This document shows positions 10,488 to 64,000 of a DNA stretch of 64,000 bases, piece by piece. Source of the DNA: Kalaharituber pfeilii (Eukaryota > Ascomycota > Pezizomycetes > Pezizales > Pezizaceae); the NCBI GenBank assembly GCA_015179045.1, contig WHUZ01000050.1, positions 390,167 through 454,166 on the forward strand. Direction: 5' to 3'. Position 1 is the stretch's first letter, and the number at the start of each line of letters is the position of its first letter. The notes under the pieces are model-generated. The model did not search any database, was not told where the DNA came from, and was given only the letters and a program-made list of their open reading frames with translations. The position numbers and the translations under genes are program-made.

Positions 10488-13040
10488 GTTGCTCTGTGCT
10501 GTAGTTCAAACTAGCGTACAAAGTATCGAAGTTGTCGAAATGAAGTGCACAGTCGTAGCAGGAACTATGATATGCGGAACGTAAATGAATGGATGTTTCG
10601 TCAACTGAAATTACTTGCTACTGTGGTTTGCCGTCTCTTTTCTTGATTGTGGAGGCAACAGCCCGTCTTGCTTCAAGATCCAACTGACCACAAATTGCTT
10701 GGTCCTAACGTTATACCGGTCTAAGAAGTGACACCAACAGATGATCTAGACTGAATGAATGACCTTTGAACACGACCTCGTGACACACAAGCTTTGATTC
10801 GATGACCTAAAAGCGAATGACAAATGTGGAGTTTCTTGGTCAAGGCGGAGGCTGGAGAAGTCGTTCTGTTGAAGGTTATGCAGAATTATAGGGTCCTTTT
10901 GTCGGCGAACCATATACCATGTATTGTCCGATAATGTAGAGTACGTCTTCTAAATGCACTAATCTTCTTTGTCGTTTTTTTCTCTCTTTTTCTTTTCCTT
11001 TCCTTTTTTCCTTTTTCTTTTCTTTGTCTTACGTATCCTTTTTGTCTTTTTGAATGTGGGATCACTGTAAGGGGGATATGAAGAGAAAATCAAGGAGGGA
11101 GAATCTCATGACCCGCAAGAGACCTTGTTCCTTTGTGCAGAGATCGATTTACCGTTTGGGAGGGCTTGTTGAAGGGAAAGAGTCAACGATGAGAGATCAG
11201 TCCCTGGTCCCAGCAATTCTCCTGGGCTCGGGATCCAGCAATGGCGCTTGCGCTCGCTGAAGCTGCCGGTTCCGTGTTTTAGGGCACAGGGTGGGTGGGC
11301 TTTTGGGTAATGAAAATGCTCTATTTTACCGACTGTGCGTAAGCTGCTAACTGAAAGAGTGTGGGCTGCGGCGTGTCCCGTGGCGTGAGGGTTGATGCTT
11401 GCTCGGTAGGCTTCTTTCTGTTCAGCTTCTGATCCTTCCTCCGAGGACAAAAGGTATGTATGCTAAGGAAGCAAGAACTGCACAAGCGCGCTAGGGCGGC
11501 GAGACGGAACGAAAGGGAAGGGAAAAATGGGAAGAGGGCGAGGAACAGGGGAAGCTGGGAAGCGAAAGTGCAATGCGGGAAATGCGCGAGGTGCACACAA
11601 AAGGCCCGACAAACAAAAGCAGGCAAAGAAACCCTTCTCCTCATAATATTGCTGCCCAAGCTGCGCCCTCTTCGCAAGTTGGGATTAATATGTAGAGAGA
11701 GAGAGAGAGGCTAGCCCTGCTGGAGTGAACCGCCGTGCCGCGCAGCCAGCTCCCACGGACCATGAACCGCGCATTGCTCTGCTGCGACCGCCCGTCCGTG
11801 GCTTGGCTGTGACCGGCCGTCGATGGATATGTACCTGTACCTGGCTGCGAGCCACGGTGGATGCTACAGTACTCGAGTACTTCTTGTTAGACAGTTCGAG
11901 ACTTCGTGCTAGGTGCACAGCGGCTCCAGTTGCGAATGTATGATATGGACGATTCATGAAGCAAAGGCTCCCACACAAACGCCAAGTCCTCCAATACAAA
12001 ATACAAAGAATGTCCATCATATGGCCGAAGCGCTCTCCAACTCTAGTGTCGCACTTGTTGGGCTGCAAAGCCACCACAATTATTAGGCAGTCTTGGCAGA
12101 GATAGGCCCTTCTCCTCTTCGAATTCTCTGTCGCGCGTACTAGTACTCTACATACACGTAATGCCTAACATAATGCAAGTGACCAGTCGGATCGAGACTG
12201 GCCAGGCAGCTACAGTCTAACCTTGCTATACCGGACAAAAAGTGCCAGATTTTTACTCGTCCGGTATAGCAAGGTTAGACTGTAGCGATGATCAAAGAGG
12301 CAGCCGCAGAGAACTCAACGGGCGGCGTTGCAATTCGGATCTCCAATCTGCAGGCATAGCGTTACGAGACTAGGCATAGCGATCAATCGCCCAAGTCTGG
12401 AACTATCAATCCCCCTGAAACGCGCACCCGCGGCAACACTGCAGTGTCTATTAACGCTGACCACCAAGTTGCGGCCAACCACAGCGTATTCTCGAGGCAG
12501 AATATAGTGGTCAGCAGCAGCAGCAGCATCATGCAATTCATTCGATGCTCTGACTTGCATGCATTGATAGTCACATCCCCCACCCCTTACCCCCTTAACG
12601 AACGCAGAGCTTCTAGCGCTCCCTCCTTATGTCGCGGCCACATCTCGAGTTTTCTCGGGCATAATTGCTGGATGGCCACATTCGTGTGTGTGCGATCTGC
12701 GTTGTCTACTGGTCCGCACTGAATCTATTTGTAGTAGCTCGGTTTAACTGGTCCCCAACTGTCACACTTGTAACCGTAACGCCCATGCTTTCGTTTCCTG
12801 AAACGCATCACAAAGATCCTCAGCTACACGGGAATACCGTGGCATATTCAATGGTGCGACTAGTATACCGCTACACACGCCTTTGTTCCACCCCCAGAGT
12901 AGCGGATAACCAAAGTTGCCTGAAGAGGAAAGTGCGACTGCAATTAGTGCTGCTGAGATTCAGGTTTCATCTTCCCCGCCCTCTCCGCACGCCCCACATG
13001 TCAATGCAGCCTTTTACGCTGAACTTCAACCTTAGGTTTA
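10488..13040. other. Intergenic region between flank gene and array
   Basis: Contains the promoter of the minus-strand gene ending at 10487, a pyrimidine-rich tract at about 10970-11050, a short (GA)n run at 11695-11710 and the 70-bp fold-back element listed separately. ORFs here are short, overlap on both strands and have no recognisable motifs. Similarity to the amplified units starts near 13,040. Confidence 0.5.
12213..12282. mobile_element. 70-bp fold-back miniature element (TA-flanked)
   Basis: Perfect inverted repeats (about 28 bp counting matching flanks, 12209-12236 and 12259-12286) surround a ~22-bp loop. The arm begins CAGTCTAACCTTGCTATACC, and the element is flanked by TA on both sides (12211-12212 and 12283-12284). 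A TA target site and a CAGT..-type terminus fit an internally deleted Tc1/mariner-pogo (Fot1-like) element. The family assignment is inference. Confidence 0.7.
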
Positions 13041-13186
13041 TCGCATCTTTGGCAGATCACTCGATTGCTTAATCCCTACTTCATACCGCCTGGGGACGAC
13101 GCTAGGCAAGTACACATGTACCCAGCTGAGGGGAGACTGTACCACAGAGTGTATAAGCTATTGCAATGAGGGCAAAATCGCTACTA

Positions 13187-15063: not shown

Positions 15064-18000
15064 ATGGAATTAGCAGCCTCTGCTGCCGGACTGGCCGGAC
15101 TGGCCGGACTGACGCTACAACTGGCCCAAGTTGCTCGCGATTGTGCCAACATTTATTCTGAAGTGAAAGAAGTTGGCTACACACATGACTCCGTATTGCA
15201 CAATCTCCGGACGGAAGGACTTCGGCTGAAGCGGTGGGAGCAAGCTTGGGGATTGGACGCTGGCAACACCCCCAGCAAGCAACTCCAGCTTGATCCTAAT
15301 GACGAGCGGTCCAGATATGCGGCAGCTGGCCTAGCGAGGATTGTTTATGTGTTTACCAAGATCGCTGAATTGCAATCAAAATATCAAATCGAACCTGAAA
15401 CGAACGAAAAGAAAAGTATACGTGATAGCCTTAGGGTCAGCAAACTATTCTCTAGGTCTCGTTCCAAATCTCCAAGTCCAGCGAATGCTAGTCAGTCTAC
15501 AAGCCTGAGCCCTCAGCTTTCAGGACCTACTCTGAACAATAGTGATCTCTGTCTTTTGGCAAATCCAAAAACCCTCACCAGCACACAATTGCTTCCAGGT
15601 CTACAAGAAGAGATTGCCTCCTTGACTAACACTGTGCAGAAAGTACAGCAGTCTCTGTCTATATATCGCAAGCTGCGTTGGGCTGGCATGGACAAGGCAA
15701 ATTGCACCGAATTGGTAGGCCAGCTCAAGGAGTACATAGACGGCCTCTTCAATGTACTGCCACCTGATCTCACTCCTATCAGTGTACCCAAGACACAGCT
15801 TAGTTTATCTTTCAATATTCCATTCAAGATTTCTGATGTTCGGCGGAATCCTGATTTTGTTGGAAGGGAATACCTTCTCGAACAGCTAGTACATGAGATA
15901 GATGAAGGTAGGGCTGCAACGGATATTACTCATGTAGTGCTCTATGGTATGGGGGGTATGGGGAAGACGCAAATTGCATTGGAGTATGTTTATCGCCATC
16001 GCAAAGACTACTCATCAACGTTTTGGATCAATGCATCTAGCGAGCAGACAACAAAAACTAGTTTTATTCGAATTATGGAGCAATTAATTGAGCATCATGC
16101 GACACTGTTAGATTCGCCGGATTACAAACATATTGGTAGTCTCCTGGGTATCGCAGGCAAGCTCGACTCAGCAGGGCTTTTTAGCACGGAAAAACCAGAA
16201 GAAGAGCAACAGGTTATCAAAGCTGTACAGAAATGGTTAACTGCAAAACCGAACAATAAATGGCTACTTGTGTTCGACAACCTGGATGACCTGGAATCTT
16301 TTGATATAAATGACTACATTCCATCATGTGATTTTGGGACTGTGATTATTACCAGCAGAAGACGTGAGAGTGCGCAGCACCGAAGGGGCCTAGAAGTGCA
16401 TCAAATGCAGAGCAATGAAGCAGAAAGGTTACTTTTGACTAGTGCAGGGTTAGATTTAGGAAGGTTCGCTCCTGAGGGTAAGTGAATAATGTGCCTCAAC
16501 ATAGTTCCTTAATTAATCCAAAATTCCAAATATAGAACGCAAACTTGAGGAGACAGCAGTAGCAGCTATTGTGGAAAATCTTGGATACCTTCCTGTTGCC
16601 ATAGCTCAGGCTGGAGCATATATCAACATTCGGCAATGTTACTTCAGTCATTATCTCAGAGAGTATAAGACAAATGTCAATCGCCTTTTGAGCAGAAAAT
16701 GGAACAAAGGAAAGAATGGTACATCTGTCTTTGCTACTTGGGAGTTGTCATTCAATGCAATCAAGAACCAAAATCCAAAAGCTGCAGAGTTGTTATCATT
16801 ATGTGCGTTTCTTGACAATAATGATATATGTGAGGAGTTTTTGAGGCGAGGAATGAAATTAGCTATGAATGGTAGGCAACCATATATTTTTAAAATAAAA
16901 TTTGTACTTATACATTACTATAGATACAAGCCTAGCAGACTCAATCCATCTACTCTTCTCATACTCGATCGCTAAGCGAACAGAGACATACTATAGTTTC
17001 AATATCCACCCACTAGTTCACCTTTGTATTCGATGGAAACTGGAGATGGAGCCTGACGAATATCAACAAAAGGCTATTGAAGCTTTTCTTGTGGTTGCAT
17101 CTGGATTCGCTACTTCCAAAGGCAGAGTACATACGGTTAGTGACTGGATCTTTGAGCGGCGAAATTTGCCACATCTTTTTGCTGTGGAAAGGCAAATGAA
17201 GGATCTGCCATTGGAAAAGGAGGAGTCACTGGCAGCCTTGGATACTCTCTACTGGGTCTACAAAAACCACGGTCATTATAGAAAGGCAGAAGAAATGTGT
17301 ACAGCCGTATTGGCTGCAAGAGAGAAGTTGCTGGGCACAAACCACTTAAAAACCTTGGGTACTATTCACAGGATGGCAGAACTATATGAGAATCAAGGGA
17401 AATATAACGAAGCACTGGGATTGTATCAGCGAGTATTAGAATGGACAGAAAAATCACTAGGTACTGACCATCCAAACACTCTTGTAGTTGTCATGAACAT
17501 GGGATTGGTATATACTCGCCAAGGGAAATATAGCGAGGCACTGGAACTGCTTCAGCGAGCATTAGCGGGTTGTGAAAAATCACTGGGTGCGGACCATCTA
17601 ACGACCCTTGGTACTGTCCACAACATTGCGATGGTATATGATAATCAAGGGAAATACAATCAGGCGCTGGAGCGGTATCAGTGGGCATTAGCAGGGTTTG
17701 AGAAGACACTGGGTGCTGACCACCCAAGAACCCTTACTACTGTTAATGACATGGCTATAGTATATAGAAAGCAAGGGAAATATAGCCAGGCACTGGAGAT
17801 GTATCAGAGAGCATTAGCGGGAAAAGAAAAGACACTGGGTGCTGACCATCCAACTACCCTTAATACTATCCACAACATTGCTATAGTATATGAAAATCAA
17901 GGGAAATATAGCCAGGCACTGGAACTGTATCAGCGAGCATTAGCAGGGCGTGAAAAATCACTGGGTACTGACCATCCAAGCACCCTTGATACTGTCAACA

Positions 18001-18440
18001 GCATGGCAAATGTATATGAAAGTCAAGGGAAATACAGCCAAGCACTGGAACTGTATCAGCGAGGATTAGCTGGGTTTGAAAAGGCACTGGGTGCCAACCA
18101 TCCAAGCACCCTTCGAACTGTCTACAACATGGCCATACTTTATGAAAATCAAAGGGAATATAGTCAGGCAATGGGGCTGTATCAGCGAGCATTAGCAGGG
18201 TATGAAAAATCACTGGGTACTGACCATCCAAGCACCCTTGATACTGTCCACAACATGGCAGTATTATATGAAAATCAAAGGGCATATAGTCAGGCAATGG
18301 AGCTGTATCAGCGGGCATTAGCAGGAAGAGAAAAGACACTGGGCGCTGAGCATTCAGATACTGTTTGGAGTATGAAGGGGGTAGAAAGATGTCAGGCTGC
18401 TTATGGATTAGGAAAGGTTTTCTACGGGATTTTTTTATAG
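15064..18440 (+). CDS. NLR-like receptor 1: HeLo-like / NB-ARC / 9 TPR, 1,088 aa
   Basis: Putative STAND-type nonself or cell-death receptor. Exons 15064-16477, 16536-16871 and 16924-18440; both introns are phase 1 (GTAAGT..TATAG and GTAGGC..TATAG). Residues ~1-235 look HeLo-like: MELAASAAGLAGLAGL start, LRLKRWEQAWGL, LARIVYVFTKIAELQ, and KLRWAGMD before LVGQLKEYIDGLF, interrupted by a Ser/Lys linker near 125-160. HeLo domains of HET-S relatives act at membranes in cell death. NB-ARC: FVGRE, P-loop GMGGMGKT at 295-302, Walker B LLVFDNLDD from 401, GTVIITSRR from 425, LGYLPVAIAQAG from 487, HPLVH at 612-616. Residues 685-1062 are nine 42-residue TPRs. A 33-bp in-frame deletion removes the stop used by copies 2-4, adding a 13-residue tail (YGLGKVFYGIFL type). 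The first ATG downstream of a stop-bounded leader was chosen; non-ATG extension to 15043 was rejected. Confidence 0.9.
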
Positions 18441-21049
18441 TGCTATTATTTATTTGTTTTTCAGATTATTTGGTTGTTTGTATATTCATGTATTCACGCT
18501 TTCATTTTGCATAGTTGTTCAATTTCTCATTCATATATACCCGAATAACTCTACAATTCATTGGAGAAAGTACTCGTTCTGGGTTTTTTCAATTGCCAAA
18601 TAGCCGAAGTGGGGGGCGAGGGGAATTCGCGGGGGTCATACGGCTTTTAGATAGAGACTTTTTCACATTCAAGTGAACCTTTACTTCATTTAAAGCTAGA
18701 ATTTGTACCACATGCCCACATAGTCTGGCTCGGTTAAACTTGTGCGTAATAGGGGTGCAGGAGCAGAATAGGTAGGGGGTGAGTATACAGTAGCAAAGTA
18801 AGCGGAGGTCGACTATATATAATATGTGCATGAGAGTGAATATTCAGCAATTCGTATGTAGTGTGTGTAGAAGAGGAGATTATGAGTAGCCTGGCACATG
18901 TAGGCTAAAATATATAGAGCGTTGGTATACGGGTCTTCAAAGGGGCTCAAAAGGATTGGAGGAACAAGAGAGAGGGCGGGGGCATGTAGAACACAAGTCC
19001 CGCTGTCATAAGGGGAGAGGACAATAGACTCGAAGGGAGGGTAATATTACTGTACATACGAGATGTTAGCAGGTTCAGATTATCAGCATTGAACTTGAAC
19101 AGCCTAGGGGAGGGTTCCATGTTCAGGGTAAGGGCTGTAGGTGGAGTTAGAGAGGCAGGGAGCTGAGGGCAGCTGAGATGTGGAGCTTGTGTGAGGAAGC
19201 GAGGATGAAAGGCAACCTGCGTGGGACTGGCAGTCATTGGCAACACCTACTGACATACATCCCCTCACTCCTCTCCTCGTACGCCTTCTCCCCGTCCTCG
19301 CCCATGCGTTCATGCAATATAATGATTCTGTCTTCAATCCCTTACCCACCCCCTCGTTCCCCACATAAATGTATACACGCCCCTCTCGACTACCGCCGCC
19401 TTGGGCGGTAAATAACTGTTCATAGAACTGAATTTACTACTGTATATGGCGAACAAGACAGTGATATGGAGCTTTTCTGGGTATCACAACACTTGGGCTC
19501 GGAATAATGATTAACTGGGATGTTTATTCTGCAAACTGGGGTGGCATGTTAAGAGTCGTATGTCGGTTGTATTTAGTTGCATATTTTCGGCTTGTTGCCC
19601 AATGTGTTATACAATGCATGTTGACCATATGAAGCTTATTTTGACTGACGATCTACAAGGGAGTACATAGTAGTATACATGTATGACATATAGGGCCCAC
19701 TTCACCCTCGCCATAAATTGCTCCGCTCGGCATCGACTCTCCCGTGCATAGAAGCTTTAGCTTTTTGCAATCCCAACTCTGTCCATGCGCCTTCCTATTT
19801 GCTTGTATTATGATATTTCTCGAATGGAGGAAAAACGGGCGGATCATTTCGTACGTTGCTGGTCCAATACCATGGGTCGCTTCGAGCACAAATTGGGAGA
19901 TAGTGTGATCTATCATGTTGGAAATTGAATTTGGCTACCCACGCTACCCTCAGTCCTCGGTCCTTGCAGGATTCACTCCCGGTCTTACAGCTTCCTTGTC
20001 CCAAGAACCTTCCTTCACTTGAATTCTGCATATCTAAATATACTACACTGGCTTTCCTTTACGTTCTTCTAGTTCTCCTCTTTCAAGCATCGTTGGACAA
20101 ACTTCAAATTCGGGCTCACCAGTACGTACGAGTATCGAGTTACTTTACCTTTCATCCAAAGCATTACGTTCCCATTCGGTGCATTAAGAGAGTACAAAAT
20201 TAAGTATCCCGGATTTCAGCAGCATGTGCCAGGAACTAGGGTCCACTAGGCTCCTGTTTTGTGACTCAGTTTTTGGCGGGGTGCTACTGGGAATGTATGT
20301 ACGGGTGTGCTGTTCAGAACTGTTCTGGTGGCATATAAAGCAATTGTTTGGGAATCCCTTGTGTTGAATCTTGGAGGCTTAAAGCAGGAGAGACAAACAG
20401 GAATACCTACGGGACGACACTGACAATGGGCGGGGAACTAGTACTTACTGGGTTGCGTCACACAAAGCTTATACACACTTTATGTCTGACGGAAGCTGAC
20501 CCGTACCTACAATGGAAGCGATTTGGAAATCTGGAGGGATTCGATAAAGATACAGATAGATTGAGGCGCAACCGGTGAAGTGAAGCATAACATACCAGCG
20601 ACACAAAGTGGCAGACATCACCTCCGAAGTCATTGCGCAGTTACAGCACTCTGCTCCGCGAACTTCCCACATACCACACCACATCACATCAAAGGGAGCA
20701 GTGAGATCCCTTTCGACTTTTACAATGATGATTACTGGTAATGACCGTGGACGTGGACCGAGCGGCAGATTCCTGGCATGGGGCTGGATCGGTTGCTTGC
20801 TAGAAACGCACCAAGGAGAAGCGAGTAGATGTAGTACAGTATTGGCAACGGGACTGGATCCTCATCTAGTGGTACAAGGGACATTCGAAGTGGGACCTAG
20901 GGGTTGATAGGTGGAAGGAGAAAGAGAACAGCAGTTACACCGCATGATGGAGAGCCGGATCCAACAGTTATACCTAATACAAGCATGATTGGGATCCTGT
21001 CGAGATTCCCGTCATGCTACGGTATAGGCCTGGTGCCGCAGACTTGTAG
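18441..21049. other. 3' flank and spacer of unit 1
   Basis: 3' UTR-like AT-rich DNA to about 18,560, then spacer shared with units 2 (to 32,626), 3 and 4. Several short minus-strand ORFs (for example 18,947-19,246 and 19,653-19,916, the latter containing ATHGIGPATYEMIRPFF) are conserved among units. They lack recognisable domains, and their conservation is what recent duplication alone would give. I do not call a gene here. Confidence 0.5.
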
Positions 21050-22262
21050 GAGCATCAGGGAAGTTTCCAAGTTACAACGATGAAGATGGAGAAGGTGAGG
21101 AGGAAATGGAGCTGTTAATAAGAGGTTGGGATAACTATGAGATGCTGGTGGTAGCAATGATGGCGATGGTCCTTCGGGAGTGGTGCAATAGGCAACTTAA
21201 CAAGAGCCTACCAGCATTATCCGTCACTCTCTCGTTAGAGGCAAAGGAGCCAAACGTCATCATCAGAGGCGAGTAGAGAGTCCTTCCGGAGGAGAGGCGA
21301 TCTATTTCCGAGCGACGGAGAGGAAGATGCAGTTCAACAGGGCAATAAATTCTCAATTGTGCAGAGGAGCGGAAGTGGCGGTGAGGCAGCGTAGCATCCT
21401 ATCTACTACATCCACGAGATGAGGGAGCCAGAGTCATACTACCAGCAGCCATGAAGATGAATACCATGATGAGCGCGACTAGTTTAACCCAAATCCTGCA
21501 CATCATGAACCGTGGGATGATGCAGTGCTCACATCACAGGAAGCACAGATTGCGGTAGAGGAGGAAAGGGAGATTGAGAGTAAGTGAGCGCCGGCGCACA
21601 GGTTGGCGTTTGAGAAGGGCTTGAGCGTGCAGAGTATCAGCACTCACATGTAAACTGCGCTTCGGGATGTCTGCGTTAGCAGTAGAAACATTATCTCACG
21701 GCCAACACAACCGCAAATCTCCACGTCACGAAGCCGCTCTTCCTCCGCCAAACTCACCCCGCTCCCCACACTCTCCACGCTCTGCTCGTATTTCATATAG
21801 CAACTATGACACGAGCATGAGCTCGGAAGGGGGATGTTATCACCGATGTCATTACCTACTTCACTGCAGGTGCAACCACAGTCGTATCCCCATTCTGATC
21901 CTCACAATGTCCAACAGGGAGGCAGGATACTTTGTGCCCAAATTGCCACTATCTCAGAATTAACAGCCATCAAGGCTGAATACGTGAGCTGGAGTTGGTG
22001 GGGGTATGAGGCCGATGACACCAATTTCCGTTGGAAGGGGGTCCAGGGTAGAGAGTTCGGTGCCGACAACGCAGAGGGTTGCCTCACCCCCCTCACAAAG
22101 GGTAGTATCAGCAACACCGTCGCCGCAAAGGGTGGCTTCACCTCTCCTTCCCACTGCGCCTCCACAGTGACAGCAGCAGCAGGCGCAAGGGGGGAACAGT
22201 CTCAACAGGAGGGCAACCCTGTGAATATGCCACTGGTGAGGCCATCACCTGAGGCATCGTGA
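21050..22262 (+). pseudogene. Decayed unrecognised gene, unit 1 copy
   Basis: Protein-like segments in changing frames: EPLIRRW-like and MMAIVLREWCNRQL (around 21,100-21,200), LTSQEAQIAVEEEREIE (about 21,530-21,575), then SALAVETLSHGQHN and a Ser/Pro-rich stretch leading to EYVSWSWWGYEADDTNFRWK (about 21,980-22,040). Frames are broken by stops and indels; one TAA after EEREIE is absent from units 3 and 4. The same remnant appears at about 45,810-46,990 and 57,005-58,140. Family not recognised. Confidence 0.5.
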
Positions 22263-24900: not shown

Positions 24901-25022
24901 TACTGATATTCTGAGGCCTGTCTATTCGATTGCTTAATCCCTACTTCATACCGCCTGGGTACGACGCTAGGCAGGTACACATGTACCCAGCTGAGGGGAG
25001 ACTGTACCACAGAGTACCTAGC

Positions 25023-25844: not shown

Positions 25845-26511
25845 ATGTATAAGCTATTGCAATGAGGGCAAAATCGCTAGATATAGCCGTTGTTTGCAAA
25901 CCGCACCTGTGGAAGAGGGGATAATACCTGCTTGGAGGTTTAACACGAAAGGAACATTTTAAGGAGAATAGTAAGTGGAGATCTTCCCAGATGTGCTGAA
26001 CGCCGCTGTAGCCTGGTTGCGAGATACAGCCGGACAGTTAAAGAAGGAGGGAGGAAGGTCCTGGGTAACGATGAGGGGTTCGCACAATTGATAGGATCGT
26101 ATGGACTCACTGAAACGTGCAGGTTTCGACAGTTACAAACTTGGCTCCAGATTAACCACAAGAACCACATATCCAACGTCGAAAATTATATGCAAGAATA
26201 CGTACAGTAGCTACAAGCATCATGAGGAACCAATTGAGGAATCTATATTCTGCAGATGTAATTTCATTGGTGAGAACCTTGTGAGAGGCGTATAAAAGGC
26301 TGAGTACTCACGGTCCTCTATAACTGGGGTTTTTGCCCATCTGGGGAGAAAAAAAAAAAAAAAAGAAAAAAAAAAAAATACGTTGCCTTAGCAACAGTAA
26401 TGTATTTACTGTAGTATTTGCCTATCCTTTTCAGAAAAGCTCAACTGTAAGAAATTCCCACTACAAACGGTCAATTTTTGAAAAAGATATTTACCGTCAA
26501 GTAAAAATGTG

Positions 26512-26543
<32 letters not shown>

Positions 26544-35052: not shown

Positions 35053-35084
<32 letters not shown>

Positions 35085-37422: not shown

Positions 37423-37457
37423 TTATGTAGCGTTCCAATACTTTCCGAACCAGCGAG
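37423..37457. mobile_element. Right half of the ~109-bp MITE (unit 3)
   Basis: Matches positions 48,604-48,639 of unit 4, including the right inverted terminus and the following TATA. The left half is missing because the Helitron entered here and the adjoining DNA was deleted. Confidence 0.8.
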
Positions 37458-48526: not shown

Positions 48527-48530
48527 TATA

Positions 48531-48639: not shown

Positions 48640-48643
48640 TATA

Positions 48644-50884: not shown

Positions 50885-53800
50885 ATGGAATTAGCAGCCT
50901 CTGCTGCCGGACTGGCCGGACTGACGCTACAACTGGCCCAAGTTGCTCGAGATTGTGCCAACATTTATTCTGAAGTGAAAGAAGTTGGCTACACACATGA
51001 CTCCGTATTGCACAATCTCCGGACGGAAGGACTTCGGCTGAAGCGGTGGGAGCAAGCTTGGGGATTGGACGTTGGCAACACCCCCAGCAAGCAACTCCAG
51101 CTTGATCCTAATGACGAGCGGTCCAGATATGCGGCAGCTGGCCTAGCGAGGATTGTTTATGTGTTTACCAAGATCGCTGAATTGCAATCAAAATATCAAA
51201 TCGAACCTGAAACGAACGAAAAGAAAAGTATACGTGATAGCCTTAGGGTCAGCAAACTATTCTCTAGGTCTCGTTCCAAATCTCCAAGTCCAGCAAATGC
51301 TAGTCAGTCTACAAGCCTGAGCCCTCAGCTTTCAGGGCCTACTCTGAACAATAGTGATCTTTGTCTTTTGGCAAACCCAAAAACCCTCACCAGCACACAA
51401 TTGCTTCCAGGTCTACAAGAAGAGATTGCCTCCTTGACTAACACTGTGCAGAAAGTACAGCAGTCTCTGTCTATATATCGCAAGCTGCGTTGGGCTGGCA
51501 TGGACAAGGCAAATTGCAACGAATTGGTAGGCCAGCTCAAGGAGTACATAGACGGCCTCTTCAATGTACTGCCACCTGATCTCACTCCTATCAGTGTACC
51601 CAAGACAAGGCTTAGTTTATCTTTCAATATTCCATTCAAGATTTCTGATGTTCGGCGGAATCCTGATTTTGTTGGAAGGGAATACCTTCTCGAACAGCTA
51701 GTACATGAGATAGATGAAGGCAGGGCTGCAACGGATATTACTCAGGTAGTGCTCCATGGTATGGGGGGTATGGGGAAGACGCAAATTGCATTGGAGTATG
51801 TTTATCGCCATCGCAAAGACTACTCATCAACGTTTTGGATCAATGCATCTAGCGAGCAGACAACAAAAACTAGTTTTATTCGAATTATGGAGCAATTAAT
51901 TGAGCATCATGCGAAACTGTTAGATTCGCCGGATCACAAACATATTGGTAGTCTCCTGGGTATCGCAGGCAAGCTCGACTCGGCAGGGCTTTTTAGCACG
52001 GAAAAACCAGAAGAAGAGCAACAGGTTATCAAAGCTGTACAGAAATGGTTAACTGCAAAACCGAACAATAAATGGCTACTTGTGTTCGACAACCTGGATG
52101 ACCTGGAATCTTTTGATATAAATGATTACATTCCATCATGTGATTTTGGGACTGTGATTATTACCAGCAGAAGACGTGAGAGTGCGCAGCACCGAAGGGG
52201 CCTAGAAGTGCATCAAATGCAGAGCAATGAAGCAGAAAGGTTACTTTTGACTAGTGCAGGGTTAGATTTAGGAAGGTTCGCTCCTGAGGGTAAGTGAATA
52301 ATGTGCCTCAACATAGTTCCTTAATTAATCCAAAATTCCAAATATAGAACGCAAACTTGAGGAGACAGCAGTAGCAGCTATTGTGGAAAACCTTGGATAC
52401 CTTCCTGTTGCCATAGCTCAGGCTGGAGCATATATCAACATTCGGCAATGTTACTTCAGTCATTATCTCAGAGAGTATAAGACAAATGTCAATCGCCTTT
52501 TGAGCAGAAAATGGAACAAAGGAAAGAATGGTACATCTGTCTTTGCTACTTGGGAGTTGTCATTCAATGCAATCAAGAACCAAAATCCAAAAGCTGCAGA
52601 GTTGTTATCATTATGTGCGTTTCTTGACAATAATGATATATGTGAGGAGTTTTTGAGGCGAGGAATGAAATTAGCTATGAATGGTAGGCAACCATATATT
52701 TTTAGAATAAAATTTGTACTTATACATTACTATAGATACAAGCCTAGCAGACTCAATCCATCTACTCTTCTCATACTCGATCGCTAAGCGAACAGAGACA
52801 TACGATAGTTTCAATATCCACCCACTAGTTCACCTTTGTATTCGATGGAAACTGGAGATGGAGCCTGACGAATATCAACAAAAGGCTATTGAAGCTTTTC
52901 TTGTGGTTGCATCTGGATTCGCTACTCTCAAACGCAGAGAACGTACGGTTAGTGACTGGATCTTTGAGCGGCGAAATTTGACACATCTTTTTGCTGTGGA
53001 AAGGCAAATGAAGGATCTACCATTGGAAAAGGAGGAGTCACTGACAGCCTTGGATACTCTCTACTGGGTCTACGAAAACCACGGTCATTATAGAAAGGCA
53101 GAAGAAATATGTATGGCCGTATTGGCTACAAGGGAGAAGTTGCTGGGCACAAACCACTTAGAAACCCTGAATACTATTTATGACATGGCAGGACTATATC
53201 AGAGACAAGGGAAATATAACCAAGCACTGGGATTGTATCAGCGGGTATTAGAAGGGGGAGAAAAAGTGCTAGGTACTGATCATCAAAACACTCTTGGAAC
53301 TGTCATAGATATGGGATTGGTATATACTCGTCAAGGGAAATATAGCGAGGCACTGGAACTGTTTCAGCGAGCATTAGCAGGTTGTGAAAAATCACTGGGT
53401 GCGGACCATCTAACGACCCTTGGTACTGTCCACAACCTAGCAATGGTATATTATTATCAAGGGAAATATAATCAGGCACTGGAGCGGTGTCAGTGGGCAT
53501 TAGCAGGGTTTGAGAAGACACTGGGTGCTGACCACCCAACAACCCTTAATACTGTTAATGACATGGCCGTAGTATATGAAAAGCAAGGGAAATATAGCCA
53601 GGCACTGGAGATGTATCAGAGAGCATTAGCGGGAAAAGAAAAGACACTGGGTGCTGACCATCCAACCACCCTTGATACTATCCACAACATGGCAAATGTA
53701 TATCAAAATCAAGGGAAATATAGCCAAGCACTGGAACTGTATCAGCGAGCATTAGCAGGGTGTGAAAAATCACTAGGTACTGACCATCCAAGCACCCTTG

Positions 53801-54348
53801 ATACTGTCAACAGCATGGCAAATGTATATGAAAGTCAAGGGAAATATAGCCAAGCACTGGAACTGTATCAGCGAGCATTAGCAGGAAGGGAAAAGGCACT
53901 GGGTGCCAACCATCCAAGCACCCTTCGAACTGTCCACAACATGGCAATATTATATGAAAATCAAAGGGAATATAGTCAGGCAATGGAGCTGTATCAGCGG
54001 GCATTAGCAGGAAGGGAAAAGGCACTGGGTGCTGACCATCCAAATACCCTTGGTACTATCTACAACATGGCTATAGTATATCAAAGTCAAGGGAAATATA
54101 GCCAGGCACTGGAACTGTATCAGCGAGCATTAGCAGGAAAAGAAAAGGCACTGGGTGCGAACCATCCAAGCACCCTTGATACTGTCTACAGCATGGCAAT
54201 ATTATATGAAGATCAAAGGGAATATAGTCAGGCAATGGAGCTGTTTCAGCGGGCATTAGCAGGAAGAGAAAAGACACTGGGCGCTGAGCATTCAGATACT
54301 GTTTGGAGTATGAAGGGGGTAGAAAGATGTCAGGCTGCTCTGAAGTAA
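50885..54348 (+). CDS. NLR-like receptor 4: HeLo-like / NB-ARC / 10 TPR, 1,117 aa
   Basis: Longest intact member. Exons 50885-52289, 52348-52683 and 52736-54348; introns of 58 and 52 nt, both phase 1. The HeLo-like domain lacks one AGL triplet of copies 1 and 2 (AAGLAGLTLQ). NB-ARC motifs are all present: GMGGMGKT near residue 292, LLVFDNLDD, GTVIITSRR, LGYLPVAIAQAG and HPLVH. Residues 682-1101 form ten 42-residue TPRs, most reading like YSQALELYQRALAGxEKxLG. The stop follows CQAALK, with AACAAAATAAAG directly after. Neighbours are its own amplified spacers only. Expected to be a cytoplasmic signalling ATPase whose TPR domain senses a ligand and whose N-terminus executes membrane damage; this role is inferred from the family. 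Confidence 0.92.
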
Positions 54349-57004
54349 CAAAATAAAGTGTCAGAAAGTCACTATGGATTAGGAAAGGTTTTCTGCGGGC
54401 TTTTGTTATAGTGCTATTATTTATTTGTTTTTCAGATTATTTGGTTGTTTATTTATTCATGTATTCACGCTTTCATTTTGCATAGATGTTCCATTTCTCA
54501 TTCATATATACCCGAATAACTCGACAATTCATTGGAGAAAGTACTTGCTCTGGTTTTTTTCAATTGCCAAATAGCCGAAGTGGGGGGTGAGGGGGGAATT
54601 TGCGGGGGAGTGCGGGTCATACGGCTTTTAGATAGAGACTTTTTCACATTCAAGTGAACCTTTTCTTCATTTAAAGCTAGAACTTGTACCACATGCCCAC
54701 ATAGTCTGGCTCGGTTAAACTTGTGCGTAATAGAGGTGCGGGAGCTAAATAGGTAGGGGGTGAGGTATACAGTAGCAAAGTAAGCGGAGGTCGACTATAT
54801 ATAATATGTGCATGAGAGTGAATATTCAGTAATTCGTATGTAGTGTGTGTAGAAGAAGAGATTATGAGTAGTCTGGCACATGTAGGCTAAAATATATAGA
54901 GCGTTGGTATACGGGTCTTCAAAGGGGCTCAAGAGGATTGGAGGAACAAGAGAGAGGGCGGGGGCATGTAGAACAGAAGTCCCGTTGTCATAAGGGGAGA
55001 GGACAATAGACTCGAAGGGGGGTAATATTACTGTACATACGAGATGTTAGCAGGTTCAGGGTAACAGCATTGAACATGAACAACCTAGGGAAGGGTTCCA
55101 TGTTCAGGGTAAAGGCTGTAGGTGGAGTTAGAGAAGCAGAGGGCTGAGTGTAGCTGAGATGTGGAGCTTGTGTGAGGAAGCGAGGATGAAAGGCAACCTG
55201 CTTGGGGCTGGCAGTCATTGGCAACACCTACTGACATACATCCCCTCACTCTTCTACTCATACGCCTTCTCCCCGTCCTCGCCCATGCGTTCATGCAATA
55301 TAATGATTCTGCCTTCAATCCCTTATCCACCTCTTCATGCCCCACAAATGTACACATGTCCCTCTCGACTACCGTCGCCTTGGGCGGTAAATAACTGTTC
55401 ATAGAACTGAATTTACTACTGTATATGGTGAACAAGATAGTGATATGGAGCTTTTCTGGGTATCACAACACTCAGCGCGAAATAATGATTAACTGGGATG
55501 TTTATTCTGCAAACTGGGGTGGCATGTTCAGAGTCGTATGTCGGTAGTATTTAGTTGCATATTTTCGGCTTGTAATCCAATGTGTGATACAATGCATGTT
55601 GGCCATATGAAGCTTATTTTGACTGACGATCTACAAGGGAGTACTAGTATATATGTATGACATATAGGGCCCACTTCACCCTCGCCATAAATTGCTCCGC
55701 TCGGCATCGACTCTCCCGTGCATAGAAGCTTTAGCTTTTTGCAATCCCAGCCCTGTCCATGCGCCTTCCTATTTGCTTGTATTATGATATTTCTCGAATG
55801 GAGGAAAAACGGGCGGATCATTTCGTACGTTGCTGGTCCAATACCATGGGTCGCTTCGAGCACAAATTAGGAGATAGTGTGAGCTATCATGTTGGAAATT
55901 GAATTCCGCCTACGAAGCGTCCTCGGTCCTCGCAGGATTCACTCCCGGTCTTACAGCTTCACTCTTCCAAGAACCTTCCTTCACTTGAATTCTGCATATC
56001 TAAATATACTACACTGGCTTTCCTTTACGTTCTTCTAGTTCTCCTCTTTCAAGCATCGTTGGACAAACTTCAAATTCGGGATCACCAGTATGTACTAGTG
56101 CCGAGTTACTTTACCTTTCATCCAAAGCATTACGTTCCCATTCGGTACATTAAGAGCGTACAAAATCAAGTATCCCGGATTTCGGCAGCATGTACCAGGA
56201 ACTAGGGTCTACTAGGCTCCTGTTTCGTGACTCAGTTTTTGGCGGGTGTTACTGGGAATGTATGTACGGTGTGCTGTTCAGAACTGTTCTGGTGGCATAT
56301 AAAGCAATTGTTTGAGAATCCCTTGTGTTGGATATTGGAGGCTTAAAGTAGGAGAGACAAACAGGAATACCTACGGGACGACACTGACAATGGGTGGGGA
56401 ACTAGTACTTACTGGGTTGCGTCACACAAAGCTTATACATACTTTATGTCTGACGGAAGCTGACCCGTACCTACAATGGAAGCGATTTGGAAATCTGGAG
56501 GGATTCGATAAAGATACAGCTAGATTGAGGCGGAACCGGTGAAGTGAAGCATAACATACCAGCGACACAAAGTGGCAGACATCACCTCCGAAGTCATTGC
56601 GCAGTTACAGCACTCTGCTCCGCGAACTTCTCACATACCACACCACATCACATCAAAGGGAACAGTGAGATCCCTTTCGACTTTGACGGTGGACGTGGAC
56701 CGAGCGGCAGATTCCTGGCATGGGGCTAGATCGGTTGCTTGCTAGAAACGCACCAAGGAGAAGCGAGTAGATGTAGTACAGTATTGGCAACGGGACTGGA
56801 TCCTCATCTAGTGGTACAAGGGACATTCGAAGTGGGACATAGGGGTTGATAAGTGGAAGGAGAAAGAGAACAGCAGTTACACCGCATGATGGAGAGCCAG
56901 ATCCAACAGTTATACCCAATAAAAGCATGATTGAGATCCTGTCGAGATTCCCGTCGTGCTACGGCATAGGCCTGGTGCCGCAGACTTGCAGGAGCATCAG
57001 GGAA
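54349..57004. other. 3' flank and spacer of unit 4
   Basis: Nearly identical to 43,158-45,809 of unit 3, differing mostly by one-base indels in runs of G, C, A or T. A conserved minus-strand stretch at 55,528-55,863 contains ATHGIGPATYEMIRPFF. No recognisable gene. Confidence 0.5.
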
Positions 57005-58140
57005 TGCCGAGGGAGTTTCCAAGCTACAACGATGCAGATGGAGAAGGTGAGGAGGAAAGGGAGCCGTTGATAAGACGTTGGGATAACCATGAAATGCTCG
57101 TGTGGCAATGATGGCGATCGTGCTTCGGGAGTGGTGCAATAGGCAACTTAGCGAGAGCCTACCAGCATTATCCGTCACTCTCTCGTTAGAGGCAAAGGAG
57201 CTAAACGTCATCAGAGACGAGTAGAGAGTCCTTCCGAAGGAGAGGCGATCTTTTTCCGAGCGACGGAGAGGATGATGCAGTTCAACAGGGCAGTAAATTC
57301 TCAATTGTGCAGAGGAGCGGAAGTGGCGGTGAGGCAGCGTCGACGAGACGATTCCACAGGGTAGCATCCTATCTACTACATCCACGAGATGAAGGAGCCA
57401 GAGTCATACTACCAGCAGCCATGAAGATGAATACCATGATGATCGTGACTACTTTAATCCAAATCCTGCACATCATGAACCGTTGGATTATGCAGTGCTC
57501 ACATCGCAGGAAGCACAGATTGCGGTAGAGGAGGAAAGGGAGATTGAGAGGAAGCGAGCGCCGGCGCACGGGTTGGCGTTTGAGAAGGGCTTGAGCATGC
57601 AGAGTATCAGCACTCACACGCAAACTGCACTTCGGGATGTCTGCGTTAGCAGTAGGAACATTATCTCACGGCCAACACAACCGCAAATCTCCACGTCATG
57701 AAGCCACTCTTCCTCCGCCAAACTCACCCCGCTCCCCACACTCTCCACGCTCTGCTCGTATTTCATATAGCAACTATGACACGAGCATGAGCTCGGAAGG
57801 GGGGATGTTATCACCGATGTCATTACCTACTTCACTGCAGATGCAACCACAGTCGTATCCCCATTCTGATCCTCACAATGTCCAACAGGGAGGCAGGATA
57901 CTTTGTGCCCAAATTGCCACTATCTCAGAATTAGCAGCCATCAAGGCTGAATACGTGAGCTGGAGTTGGTGGGGGTATGATGCCGATGGCACCAATTTCC
58001 GTTGGAAGGGGGTCCAGGGTAGAGAGTTCGGTGCCGACAACGCAGAGGGTTGCCTCACCTCCCCACAAAGGGTAGTGTCAGCATCACCGTCGCCGCAAAT
58101 GGTGGCTTCATCTCTCCTTCCCACTTCGCCTCCACAGTAA
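57005..58140 (+). pseudogene. Decayed unrecognised gene, unit 4 copy
   Basis: Same remnant as in units 1 and 3. The longest open part is 57,637-58,140, containing TLSHGQHNRKSPRHEATLPP, RSARISYSNYDTSMSSEGG, QGGRILCAQIATISELAAIK and YVSWSWWGYDADGTNFRWKG. The upstream acidic part (IAVEEEREIERKRAPAHG, about 57,520-57,570) lies in another frame. A one-base deletion breaks the MLVVAMM segment near 57,100. Function unknown. Confidence 0.5.
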
Positions 58141-59681
58141 CAGCAGCAGCAGGCGGAAGGAGGGGAGCAGTCTAACAGAGGGCAATCCTGTGATTATGCC
58201 ACCGGTGAGGCCATACCTGAGGCATCGTGAAGCACAGGAAGAGCATTATTGGAAGTTATAGAGTTTGCAGCTGCAGTGATAGTATTGGGATGGGAGATGT
58301 GGGGATGTGGTTTCATATCTTTGCTATTTCAGCACATTTTTTTCTTTTTCCTTCCCGTTTCTTTCTTTTCTATTCACCAAAATCTGTGGTTATTTCATTG
58401 TCTTTCCCTCTCGTAGCGTAATGATAGTTTGGGTACGTATTCTATTACATATTTATGATTTCCCCCAACCTCTTTGATTTGGTAGGAGCGGGGATGTTGT
58501 ATGTTTGTGTGTTGGTGGGTGTTGGATGATTGATACTGGCTTACTCATATTGTGGATTTCTTTTTTTTTATATATATTTAAATTACTCGAACAAAAAAAA
58601 GTCTCATACTGAGGATACTAAGCATTTCCTTTTTTATTATTTCTTTGTCTCCGTTCCATTTAGCTATGCGTGGCCAGGAGCAGGTAGAGCAGCTAGGGTT
58701 CTTTTGACTTGTGAACACTGGGGAAGGTTATTGGGCGAGGGGGGGGTGGAAATGGGGGTATGCTAGGGAGGAAAGAGTCAAGGGGAACGGGAAATCGAAG
58801 TCGACTGTGGCCCTTTAACGTGGTTTGTGTAAGTATATATATGTATGCATATGTATGGTATAGACGCAACAAGACTCGCCCTCAACAGAAGTTTAACATC
58901 GTCGTATATAGTTAGGCTGCTTTGTGGGGTATAATAATAGCTTGTGCGGAGGATGCTGCCGACGAGGGCGGGGAAGGAGGGCAGAGCAGGGGAAAGCGCA
59001 GGGAATGTGGAGGCGGAGGGGCTGGGGACCGACGAAGGCTGGCGGAGTGGTAGGGTGGCGCGCGGGCCGAGGAGGACAACATGGTACTGATACTCGAGTC
59101 GTCTATGCCGCTGTCAACGTACTTATGTATTTTGGCAGATGACTCGATTGCTAATCCTAGGCTTCTTATACATATGACGCCTGGGGACGACGTTAGGCAA
59201 GTAACATGTACCCAGCTGAGGGAGACTGTAACCACAGAGTGAATAGCTATTGCAATGAAGGCAAAATCGTAAGATTAGCCCGTGTTTGCAAACCGCACCT
59301 GTGGAGAGGAGGATAATACTGCTTGGAGGGTTAACACGAAAGGAATATTTTAAGGAGATAAAAGTGGAGATCTTCCCAGATGTGCTGAACGCCGCTGTAG
59401 CCTGGTTGCGAGATACAGCCGGACAGTTAAAGAAGGAGGGAGGAAGGTCCTGGGTAACGATGAGGGTTCGTACAATTGATAGGATGTATGGACTCACTGA
59501 AACGTGCAGGTTCGACAGTTACAACTTGTCCAGATTAACCACAAGAACACATATCCAACGTCGAAAATTATATGTAAGAATACGTAGAGTTAGTGATAAG
59601 CATTCATGAGGAACAATTGAGGAATCCATATCTGCAGATGTAATTTCATTGGTGAGAACCTTGTGAGAGGCGTATGCTATA
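58141..59681. other. Indel-rich spacer, unit 4/5 boundary
   Basis: Colinear with 46,991-48,526 of unit 3 but missing many single bases, nearly always from runs of two or more identical bases. Includes the N-terminal edge of the PEX10 remnant (about 58,940-59,090) and the unit landmark (about 59,141-59,245). No gene. Confidence 0.6.
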
Positions 59682-59788
59682 ATCGCTGATTCGGAAAGTA
59701 GCGGAATGCTGCATAAAGCGTATGCGCTATTCGCCTTTGAAATAGTGCATATATTATGTAGCGTTCCAATACTTTCCGAACCAGTGAG
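59682..59788. mobile_element. 107-bp MITE with TATA flanks (unit 5)
   Basis: Same element as 48,531-48,639, two bases shorter, with the same TATA flanks. Presence at the same position in units 3, 4 and 5 shows that it inserted before those units separated. Confidence 0.85.
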
Positions 59789-62020
59789 TATAAGGCTAAG
59801 CACTCACGGTCTTTCATACTGTAACTGCCATTTTTCAAGGCTGGAGAGAAAAAAAAAAAATAAAAATACGTTGCCTTAGCAACAGTAATGTATTTACTGT
59901 AGTACTATATTTGCCAAAAGTCCTTGAAAGAGAATTATCCTTTTCAGAAAAGCTCAACTGTTTAAATCTGTAAGAAATTCCCACCACAAACGGTCAATTT
60001 CTGAAAAAGATATTTGAAAACGTGAAGAAAAAGATTCCTTTATCTACTCAAGAAAATTTCAATCCCAGTATGTATTTTCTGGGCGCCCCTCCCCTACCCA
60101 CCCCGTAGGCCTCTCAACCTTCGGCTATCAAATTCTGCCTATCATAACGGTACATCACAAGCCTAGGTACATTCACAATGTATATCGTGGTGCCCCTCCA
60201 ATCAATGCCTGAAAACTTCCATTTCGCACCTCGTCTAACAGATGAGGAGCGTCTTGTTTCTTATGCGCCGTTGTGCTTGCTCTCGCTCCCCGATCTATTA
60301 ACTCTTCTCCGTAGCCGACCCTTCCTCCAGCAAGAGCAATAGCAGCTGCAGATGAAAACTTATGGCTCTTTTTCCTCTTGATAACAACCATCTTGCAAGT
60401 ACGGGCGTGTTATGGGACTGGTATCTCTTTGGCGCCCTCTCGTTCGTAAGTGTATATATAGGTGGTTGATTCCTGAGTTTTCGGGATAACTTGCAAAAAT
60501 CTCAACACCTTATATATCACTACTCGCATGCCACCTTATTGAAATCAACACCAGTGATATCGCATGTACCCTCGCTAGTATTGTAGGAAGGAGGAGATAC
60601 TATACCCAGTAGGTTTCCACCGCCTCAACCAGTATTGGAAAAGAAAACGTTTGGCAAGGTGGGTATCATGAGAGTCAGCTCCACTCGTACAAACAGGATG
60701 TACGCCACCTCCCACCTAGTCTCACTTCCGCCAGGTGTGTCTGAACTTGCCTCAACCTCTTCTTTCAACTACAGTACACAACAATTGAATTCGTCTTCTC
60801 TTCCGATAGTCTCTCGACAACTCTTGTGCCAATAATTCCACCATCCACGGGTTGCTGTCCTCCAGCCATTGCCTAACTTTTCCTAGCTTCTTCGTAAGAG
60901 CCACGGTGATGACCCCTCACTGTGTGTGCTAATGTCCAAGTATGTGTGTACATTGTGCCCTTACGCTTGTGTATGTTGCTTCTTCCACTGCTGATAGGTT
61001 GCTCCCAAGTCCGTGTCATATCGTGCCGTGTCGTGTGGTGTTGGTTTGATAGAGTAATGGACCGCAATTGAAGTGGTGAGTGTAGCTGGCTTTAATGGTC
61101 GGTACTCTGTCATATATCGTTGTTATCGGTGTAAATGTCAGTTGTGGCTCGGTCGGGCATGTCTCAGACCTTGTTATAGTCCTCTGGCTGCTTCCGCTTC
61201 TTTCCTATTATATTTATAGGATTCCGTGAGTATTTGCCCGGCTTACTGTTACTCCAGGTGACGTAGGATCTCTAAGACCATATATATGAAGACCATTCGT
61301 CTGAGAAGGTACCTTCGGGAATAGGGAGTCTTCCATTAGGTATGCCATTTTTCTAATCAATCGCTCTATCTCAACTATCATGGCAACCGATGTCTAGCGC
61401 TACATCCTTTCCATCTTCCGTTCCTTGAGCCCGTGAAGCAGCGAGAGGAGCGCATTCGGCAGGGGGCTCTGCTGCATGGCGCGGACGCCAGGATGATACG
61501 GATATACTGGTGATGCAGGAGGCTCAGTCAGTCATGACGGGTCAGGCAAAAGGTGACTATAGCATCAGCTCTCCACTCATCGTGCTTGCGGGTGTCTTAC
61601 CCCAACACACAGCCTCCACAGGTTGAGGTTTAATTATTCTGCAGCGCAGCTGTTGAGTACGCTGCGACCCAGTCCAGTGCCCCATAGCCTTCCCCGCACG
61701 AAGTAAATTTATGTAATATTTGCTTGCACAACCCTGGAGGGGAAATCTGCAAGCTTATGGGCGGTCGTTAACGTTTCAATCACATATTCTATCCAAGAGT
61801 TTGCTATCGCGATATCCGTTTACAGCCCCCCAAACGTACGGTGAAAGTCCAAGTTCCCGATTTCAAGTGCTAGTAGAGTGCTTCGTCCACCCGCTTGAGC
61901 TCACGATAAGAAGAGCTCTTCAATTCTGACAGATCAAGTAACAAACCTTGATTTCTCTTCAACCATCGCGAGGCTGACCATCATGTGTAATTCTTTAGCT
62001 TGTTTAGTCTCCTCCACAAC
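59789..62020 (+). other. Upstream region of NLR gene 5
   Basis: Hairpin block at 59,867-59,905, the conserved ~1 kb block, a frame-shifted GALLHGADARM fragment (about 61,433-61,625) and the conserved ~300 bp before the start. No gene called. Confidence 0.5.
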
Positions 62021-64000
62021 ATGGAATTAGCAGCCTCTGCTGCCGGACTGGCCGGACTGACGCTACAACTGGCCCAAGTTGCTCGAGATTGTGCCAACAT
62101 TTATTCTGAAGTGAAAGAAGTTGGCTACACACATGACTCCGTATTGCACAATCTCCGGACGGAAGGACTTCGGCTGAAGCGGTGGGAGCAAGCTTGGGGA
62201 TTGGACGCTGGCAACACCCCCAGCAAGCAACTCCAGCTTGATCCTAATGACGAGCGGTCCAGATATGCGGCAGCTGGCCTAGCGAGGATTGTTTATGTGT
62301 TTACCAAGATCGCTGAATTGCAATCAAAATATCAAATCGAACCTGAAACGAACGAAAAGAAAAGTATACGTGATAGCCTTAGGGTCAGCAAACTATTCTC
62401 TAGGTCTCGTTCCAAATCTCCAAGTCCAGCGAATGCTAGTCAGTCTACAAGCCTGAGCCCTCAGCTTTCAGGACCTACTCTGAACAATAGTGATCTCTGT
62501 CTTTTGGCAAATCCAAAAACCCTCACCAGCACACAATTGCTTCCAGGTCTACAAGAAGAGATTGCCTCCTTGACTAACACTGTGCAGAAAGTACAGCAGT
62601 CTCTGTCTATATATCGCAAGCTGCGTTGGGCTGGCATGGACAAGGCAAATTGCAACGAATTGGTAGGCCAGCTCAAGGAGTACATAGACGGCCTCTTCAA
62701 TGTACTGCCACCTGATCTCACTCCTATCAGTGTACCCAAGACAAGGCTTAGTTTATCTTTCAATATTCCATTCAAGATTTCTGATGTTCGGCGGAATCCT
62801 GATTTTGTTGGAAGGGAATACCTTCTCGAACAGCTAGTACATGAGATAGATGAAGGCAGGGCTGCAATGGATATTACTCAGGTAGTGCTCCATGGTATGG
62901 GGGGTATGGGGAAGACGCAAATTGCATTGGAGTATGTTTATCGCCATCGCAAAGACTACTCATCAACGTTTTGGATCAATGCATCTAGCGAGCAGACAAC
63001 AAAAACTAGTTTTATTCAAATTATGGAGCAATTAATTGAGCATCATGCGACACTGTTAGATTCGCCGGATTACAAACATATTGGTAGTCTCCTGGGTATC
63101 GCAGGCAAGCTCGACTCGGCAGGGCTTTTTAGCACGGAAAAACCAGAAGAAGAGCAACAGGTTATCAAAGCTGTACAGAAATGGTTAACTGCCGAACAGA
63201 ATGACAAATGGCTACTTGTGTTCGATAATTTGGATGACTTGGAATCTTTTGACATAAATGATTACATCCCACCATGTGACTTTGGAACTGTGATTATTAC
63301 CAGCAGAAGACGTGGAAGTACGCAGGGCCGAAGGGGCTTAGAGGTACATCAAATGCAGCACAATGAAGCAGAAAAGTTACTTTTGACCAGCGCAAGGTTA
63401 GATTTGGAAAGGCTCACTTCTGAGAGTAAGTGAATAACGTTTTAACTAGCCAGCGTCTGATTAGAGACTAGTTTTAACATAGTTCACTAATTAATCCGAG
63501 TGTAGAGTGCAAACTGGGAGGAGCAGCAGCAGCAGAATTGTGCAAAACCTCGGATACCTTCCTCTTGCCATAGCTCAGGCTGGAGCATATATCAACATTC
63601 AGCAATGTTTATTCAGTCATTATCTTAGAGAGTATAAGGCGAATGTTAATCACCTTTTGAGCAGGAAATGGAGAGGGAAAGGATGATAGATCTGTCTTTG
63701 CTACTTGGGAGTTGTCATTCAATGCAATCAAGAACAAAATCCAAAAGCTGCAGAGTTGTTATCATTATGTGCGTTTCTTGACAATAATGATATATGTGAG
63801 GAGTTTTTGAGGCGAGGAATGAAATTAGCTATGAATGGTAGGCAACATATTTTAGAATATAAATTTGTACTTATACATTCTATAGATACAAGCCTAGCAG
63901 ACTCAATCCATCTACTCTTCTCATACTCGATCGCTAAGCGAACAGAGACATACGATAGTTTCAATATCCACCCACTAGTTCACCTTTGTATTCGATGGAA
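62021..64000 (+). pseudogene. NLR-like receptor 5, frame-disrupted and cut by window end
   Basis: Exon 1 (62021-63425) is open and carries the HeLo-like domain, FVGRE, GMGGMGKT and LLVFDNLDD. From about 63,190 it diverges from the other copies (AEQNDKW, YIPPCDFGTVIITSRRRGST), and intron 1 (63,426-63,507, 82 nt) is longer and different in sequence. Exon 2 (63,508-63,837) has at least three one-base disruptions: a missing A near 63,535, an extra base near 63,680 and a missing C near 63,735. The TPR exon begins at 63,886 and runs off the window. Residue differences in exon 1 mix features of copies 1/2 and of copies 3/4. It may be a broken gene or an unpolished stretch of assembly. Confidence 0.8.

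Follow-up and report, generated by a model that had tools for sequence, protein, structure and literature searches.

The analysed stretch, hereafter the window, comprises 64,000 nucleotides at the right end of contig C307 (positions 390167-454166) of the Kalahari desert truffle, Kalaharituber pfeilii; the contig ends at 454,166. It carries five head-to-tail genes for NOD-like receptors (NLRs) that combine a HeLo domain, an NB-ARC domain and tetratricopeptide repeats (TPRs). Self-comparison of the window showed five such blocks. The gene starts lie at 15064, 28543, 39698, 50885 and 62021, and the ATG was conserved at all five, in agreement with a first-pass annotation made from the letters alone. 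That annotation had given the units a length of about 11-12 kb. Three of the start-to-start distances fit this (11,155, 11,187 and 11,136 bp), but the first distance was 13,479 bp, giving a range of 11.1-13.5 kb. Two conserved introns of 58 and 52 nt (GT...AG) were found in units 1-4, as had been proposed. In unit 5 the frame of exon 2 is disrupted and the gene is cut by the contig end. Identity was 95-97% among the gene blocks and 82-98% among the alignable pieces of the spacers. The spacers were co-amplified with the genes, as had been suggested, and spacer 2 is largely a Helitron. The gene units are as follows.

15064-18440, plus strand: unit 1 NLR gene, exons 15064-16477, 16536-16871 and 16924-18440; 1088 residues, C-terminus altered.
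28543-31763, plus strand: unit 2 NLR gene, exons 28543-29956, 30015-30350 and 30403-31763; 1036 residues, open.
39698-43157, plus strand: unit 3 NLR gene, broken as assembled; exon 2 contains an in-frame stop, and single bases are deleted in the TPR exon.
50885-54348, plus strand: unit 4 NLR gene, exons 50885-52289, 52348-52683 and 52736-54348; 1117 residues.
62021-64000, plus strand: unit 5 NLR gene, of which exon 3 runs for 115 bases before the contig stops; frame of exon 2 disrupted as assembled.

As assembled, long open frames were present only in units 1, 2 and 4, and the earlier description of the array as near-identical full-length members was not borne out, with unit 3 broken and unit 5 cut. 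The frame of unit 3 ends after 485 residues, and its TPR exon showed four one-base deletions compared with unit 4. The single substitution separating units 3 and 4 is the one that gives unit 3 its in-frame stop, so that loss of function of unit 3 is uncertain, and its lesions may represent consensus error rather than true gene breakage.

The domain content was determined with unit 4. Pfam HeLo (PF14479) matched residues 7-232 with 67.3 bits (cut-off 23.2, E=2.2e-18), and NB-ARC (PF00931) matched residues 267-542 with 38.6 bits (cut-off 23.5, E=9.2e-10). The C-terminal part contained nine or ten TPR_12/TPR_10 stretches, built of 42-residue repeats (TPR_12 3e-120, TPR_10 5.3e-105, all above the Pfam cut-offs). 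The HeLo-like/NB-ARC/TPR identity proposed before was thus supported, and could be refined from HeLo-like to HeLo itself. Among 30 relatives, HeLo was matched in 26, NB-ARC in all 30 and TPR in 29, and the P-loop columns of NB-ARC were invariant. A HeLo-only profile, built from eight HeLo rows of which one was a three-residue stray, was searched against PDB up to E 10 and gave three matches only, all to the HET-s protein (2wvn at 7.4e-4, 2wvo and 2wvq), over 52 residues. A single-sequence PDB search with residues 1-682 gave no match. The whole-protein profile, on the other hand, found kinesin light chains and a putative kinesin light chain of Podospora anserina (4y6c/4y6w) among the best 60 of 149 matches. 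The latter has TPR-like repeats and matched with E 4.4e-34 and 5.1e-35; these structures are of the repeat piece alone and the match spans the repeats only. This protein, too, is built of 42-residue repeats.

The public gene models of the array were also compared with the genes read here. Models P0003, P0005, P0007 and P0020 (contigs C307, C136 and C102) start at residues 203-296 of our genes and thus contain little or none of HeLo. P0001, which lies on a different contig, does start at residue 1, and the same probe gave no position for P0006. Surveys relying on such shortened models would miss the killing domain.

A DNA query of the HeLo/NB-ARC part gave 40 matches in the genome, of which 38 had 84-100% identity (one partial); the other two, one at 70% and one a fragment, were excluded from the cluster count. 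All genome counts are lower bounds. A published definition of fungal NLR clusters asks for at least two NLRs separated by under 40 kb and by fewer than eight other genes (PMC12258605). When distance alone was applied, 27 of the 38 close copies fell into nine clusters, with contigs C102 and C136 counted separately. Neighbouring close copies lay on one strand in 17 of 18 pairs. In the whole genome at least 74 NB-ARC and at least 100 HeLo matches were found, counted per match and not per gene. Gene models were read for 25 of the 38 close copies. A protein tree of 62 rows was built by a quick method, and the program warns of long outgroup branches; in it the subfamily of the window (21 rows) contained Kalaharituber sequences only, and 12 Terfezia/Tirmania sequences fell outside it. 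The array belongs to a subfamily of at least 38 close copies whose clade in this tree is Kalaharituber-only.

Two further contigs matched the array over most of their span, C102 (38.5 kb) and C136 (24.7 kb), except for stretches of about 4.5 and 3.6 kb. They carry five more gene starts, giving ten array copies, all in one clade, and all five of these additional copies have broken frames as assembled. The first 11 kb of the reversed C102 and C136 were 98.8% identical to the last 11 kb of the window.

The age of the array and the constraint on it were estimated from the synonymous (dS) and nonsynonymous (dN) divergence. In HeLo and NB-ARC, dS was 0-0.05 among units 1, 2 and 4, while comparisons of unit 4 with three copies from other subfamilies gave 0.26-0.35, indicating that the array is recent within the family, as had been claimed. 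For 11 copies, compared in 55 pairs, the summed dN/dS was 0.23 for HeLo, 0.22 for NB-ARC and 0.26 for the next stretch. HeLo and NB-ARC are under constraint across the family. Recombination was assessed with a permutation test of our own, similar to the pairwise homoplasy index, and signs of it were detected in the array (p=0.001; 8 copies, 94 sites) and in the C350/C58/C312 group (p=0.002), while the C306 group, with six sites only, gave p=0.98. Repeat-induced point mutation (RIP) was considered and rejected; no bias was seen in the dinucleotide indices over the array or in the contexts of C/T changes of one spacer pair (units 1 and 4).

We were particularly interested in the variability of the TPR sensor. 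A total of 86 repeats of 42 residues was collected from 12 of the 25 gene models, three of these copies being in the window; the 13 models left out comprised 12 short frames and C306_1650, which has an aberrant end. Unit 1, C350_476 and C157_543 were kept despite odd ends, and the repeat pattern misses imperfect repeats. Magliery and Regan reported that TPR positions 2, 5, 9, 12, 13, 33 and 34 are the most variable and lie on the concave face (PMC1261162). The tested columns come from that paper, and the register onto our 42 columns was set in this analysis on the TPR consensus. Positions 2, 5, 9, 12 and 13, corresponding to columns 6, 9, 13, 16 and 17, ranked 3, 6, 4, 2 and 1 of 42 by entropy. 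Therefore, all five of these published ligand-contact positions were among the six most variable columns. The ratio of nonsynonymous to synonymous differences per site (pN/pS), obtained by a counting method and not by a codon-model test, was 2.17 at the five groove columns versus 0.41 in the other 37. The gene-level bootstrap placed the groove value at 1.17-4.90; 1.1% of the resamples did not exceed 1, and none of 10,000 random five-column sets reached the groove pN. The repeat number, counted by one pattern, was 8 in unit 1, 7 in unit 2 and 9 in unit 4. The predicted ligand-contact positions have thus changed quickly in a protein that was otherwise conserved, which suggests that the array is a place where new recognition specificities are made. 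Together with the signs of recombination, these results support the earlier proposal that the array is a substrate for fast diversification.

We consider it probable that the locus is a tandem array of HeLo/NB-ARC/TPR receptors of the cell-death type, diversified at the TPR groove within a recombining array, with the ligand, the cell death and the immune role suggested by the families concerned. Judged from these families, the TPR groove of each receptor would sense a ligand that is nonself or modified self, and ligand binding would trigger the NB-ARC switch and oligomerisation. The HeLo bundle would then expose its hydrophobic N-terminal helix, permeabilise the membrane and kill the cell or the fusion compartment. 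Exposure of the N-terminal helix and membrane permeabilisation have been described for HeLo domains (PMC10197012, PMC9815663). Unequal exchange and gene conversion between units would reshuffle the TPRs and the copy number and thereby yield new specificities. The ligand may be a self-variant (as in incompatibility), viral, bacterial or of plant origin.

Several observations weigh against this reading. The N-terminus holds the most hydrophobic 19-residue stretch of unit 4, but its hydrophobicity is modest (Kyte-Doolittle 1.39, against 1.38 at residue 476), and the AlphaFold2 model of the HeLo part was helical but weak, with a mean predicted local distance difference test score (pLDDT) of 62 and values below 50 for residues 107-173. 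The stretch after NB-ARC showed a dN/dS of 0.98-2.2 among units 1, 2 and 4, and HeLo pairs within the C350/C58/C312 group showed 0.34-1.10, both on few changes. Chimeric assembly could mimic the recombination signal. Among the 25 gene models, 12 end early (<660 residues) and four others have aberrant ends. For the groove, 278 of 10,000 random five-column sets reached its pN/pS ratio. Positions 33 and 34 (columns 37 and 38) were not hypervariable, with ranks of 33 and 9, while column 35 (position 31 in the register used), which is outside the published groove set (PMC1261162), was hypervariable with entropy rank 5. Moreover, measured against a criterion for high internal repeat conservation of more than 85% identity over 100 residues (PMC4986451), units 1, 2 and 4 stayed below, with mean identities of 0.64-0.67 and highest pairs of 0.79-0.83. 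Among the 12 copies only C57_285 averaged above 0.85 (0.87).

The remaining features of the array are listed here.

18441-28542, no strand: spacer 1; over 18402-22951 it shares 91-92% identity with spacers 3 and 4, and elsewhere pieces align at 82-96%.
32626-37649, minus strand: Helitron that fills most of spacer 2, with Helitron_like_N (PF14214), PIF1 helicase (PF05970) and Pif1_2B (PF21530); coding split across several frames.
43158-50884, no strand: spacer 3, its left part within a near-identical tract common to unit 4 and spacer 4.
39563-46437, no strand: near-identical tract of units 3/4, about 6.9 kb, which differ here by a single substitution and by 25 one-base indels, the latter in short homopolymers.
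54349-62020, no strand: spacer 4; contigs C136 and C102 hold copies of 54400-59700 at 98-99% identity.
56684-58169, plus strand: stretch of spacer 4 with 72% DNA identity to an open reading frame (ORF) of 668 residues on contig C317 (L042:640-2646).

The last of these is probably a decayed copy of the C317 host ORF. No Pfam domain was found in the stretch or in the 668-residue ORF. A partner gene in the spacer was also considered and rejected, as neither of the two ORFs tested (56807-57403 and 57595-58137) had a Pfam match. A search for known RNAs gave none at gathering score.

It was asked whether the copy number is real, given that a noisy long-read assembly might have over-split or duplicated one or two genes into a seeming array. 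On the side of such an artefact, the genome paper states that the Joint Genome Institute (JGI) assembled either PacBio reads, with Falcon or Celera, or Illumina reads, hybrids being patched with PacBio; its passage on assembly does not say which was used for this species (PMC7550596). Two pairs of copies differ by a single substitution, units 3 and 4 and C102_a and C136_a, and both may be assembly duplicates. Over the units 3/4 tract this single substitution is accompanied by the 25 homopolymer indels, while in the next 2 kb outside the tract 66 of 1978 sites differ on the left and 51 of 1949 on the right, nine of the latter in one misaligned stretch. The tract looks like long-read consensus error over identical sequence, which may have come from a very recent duplication, from gene conversion or from duplication by the assembler. 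Moreover, C307, C102 and C136 all break within about 80 bases of the same unit point, where the TPR exon starts; C307 contains only the first 115 bases of exon 3 (63886-64000), and C102 and C136, when reversed, set in at about base 195 of this exon. However, eight of the ten array copies differ pairwise by at least 19 substitutions in about 2 kb compared, and units 1, 2 and 4 are distinct inside a single contig. A second haplotype as the source of C102 and C136 is not favoured because the tested 3 kb piece of the left flank (4000-7000) occurs at a single place in the genome, an argument that covers the flank and not the array itself. We regard an array produced by assembly as quite unlikely. 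The broken frames might instead mark a dying family, in which neutral tandem duplicates decay after amplification. Units 3 and 5 and the five C102/C136 copies are frame-broken as assembled, and the apparent decayed copy of a host gene in spacer 4 would fit as well, but neither the family-wide dN/dS of about 0.2 in HeLo and NB-ARC nor the groove pN/pS above 1 is neutral, and many frame lesions in the family are one-base homopolymer indels. Such decay is very unlikely.

The Helitron raised the question of whether a transposon had captured the NLR gene and spread it. The element in spacer 2 recurs at 98% identity in a C102 spacer, where the right junction is similar and the left one different. 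However, it was present in only one of the four spacers of the window, and the remaining spacers align together without it. The Helitron more likely was duplicated along with the array, and amplification driven by it is highly improbable. Alternatively, the TPR/NB-ARC receptors might serve something else than nonself recognition, such as signalling that involves proteins of a plant or symbiont, and their diversification would then have another cause. The cell-wall enzymes of K. pfeilii, a desert truffle, form an ectomycorrhiza-like set (PMC7550596), which would leave room for such a role. The diversified groove and the death-type effector domain, on the other hand, fit the pattern of fungal recognition NLRs (PMC4986451), and we consider a non-recognition role unlikely.

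The proposed recognition receptors were compared with known systems. Like the fungal NLRs surveyed by Dyrka et al. in 2014, they carry effector, NB-ARC and TPR in one protein (PMC4986451). In the Podospora sesB-like/NB-ARC/TPR protein of that survey the variable TPR positions lie on the concave side, and in the K. pfeilii copies they lie at the canonical groove positions. The combination of HeLo, NB-ARC and TPR is not named in the consulted part of the survey, and Terfezia and Tirmania relatives carry it. In contrast to the surveyed NLRs, the present case is one subfamily with at least 38 close copies, many of them head-to-tail, and the window copies lack the 85% internal repeat conservation. 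The HeLo executioner domain is shared with the HET-S/NWD2 amyloid signalling system (PMC10197012). The K. pfeilii HeLo, however, is fused to the receptor, so that neither a separate effector nor an amyloid motif is needed for the model. The arrangement also differs from a two-gene pair, in which a receptor without HeLo is paired with a separate HeLo effector, because HeLo lies on the receptor itself; no search for amyloid motifs was made. Proteins of the HNWD family have a HET N-terminus and NACHT. The Podospora HNWD genes het-d, het-e and het-r likewise have 42-residue repeats with hypervariable sites under diversifying selection and require long-read assembly, but their sensor is WD40 instead of TPR (PMC12222747).

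In Sordariales, NLR clusters contain two to five NLRs, and 16 of 272 clusters consist of paralogous copies; recombination was proposed to diversify clustered NLRs, and tandem duplication is reportedly prevented by RIP (PMC12258605). The K. pfeilii array shares with them the proximity of NLRs within 40 kb, but its five genes on C307 are all close paralogues, and it is more uniform than the clusters of that survey. No RIP-like bias was seen in it. Five genes on one contig equal the Sordariales maximum, and the array exceeds it only if one of the further contigs, C102 or C136, is part of the array. Receptors of this kind, and the way in which they change, are already known, and the uniform array in the K. 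pfeilii lineage is the new part. No paper on Kalaharituber NLRs was found among the open-licence papers of PubMed Central.

A further reading is offered tentatively, as a possibility for which we would claim somewhat less than even chances. The locus might be a receptor-making one, free of RIP-like damage, in which unequal exchange and gene conversion among ten or more units, together with selection on the groove, keep yielding new HeLo-NLR specificities that vary in number and kind between individuals. By analogy it would be a fungal counterpart of plant R-gene clusters. A recombining single-subfamily HeLo-NLR array in a desert truffle allows a direct test of whether tandem arrays create recognition diversity in fungi as they do in plants.

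The left flank of the array contains an adenosine-deaminase-family ORF (335-1744, plus strand) and an FG-nucleoporin ORF (5252-6949, minus strand). On the 3′ side of the genes, the first ~670 bases after the stop codon were about 64-77% conserved at many other family members, indicating that older duplications, too, carried part of the flank along with the gene.

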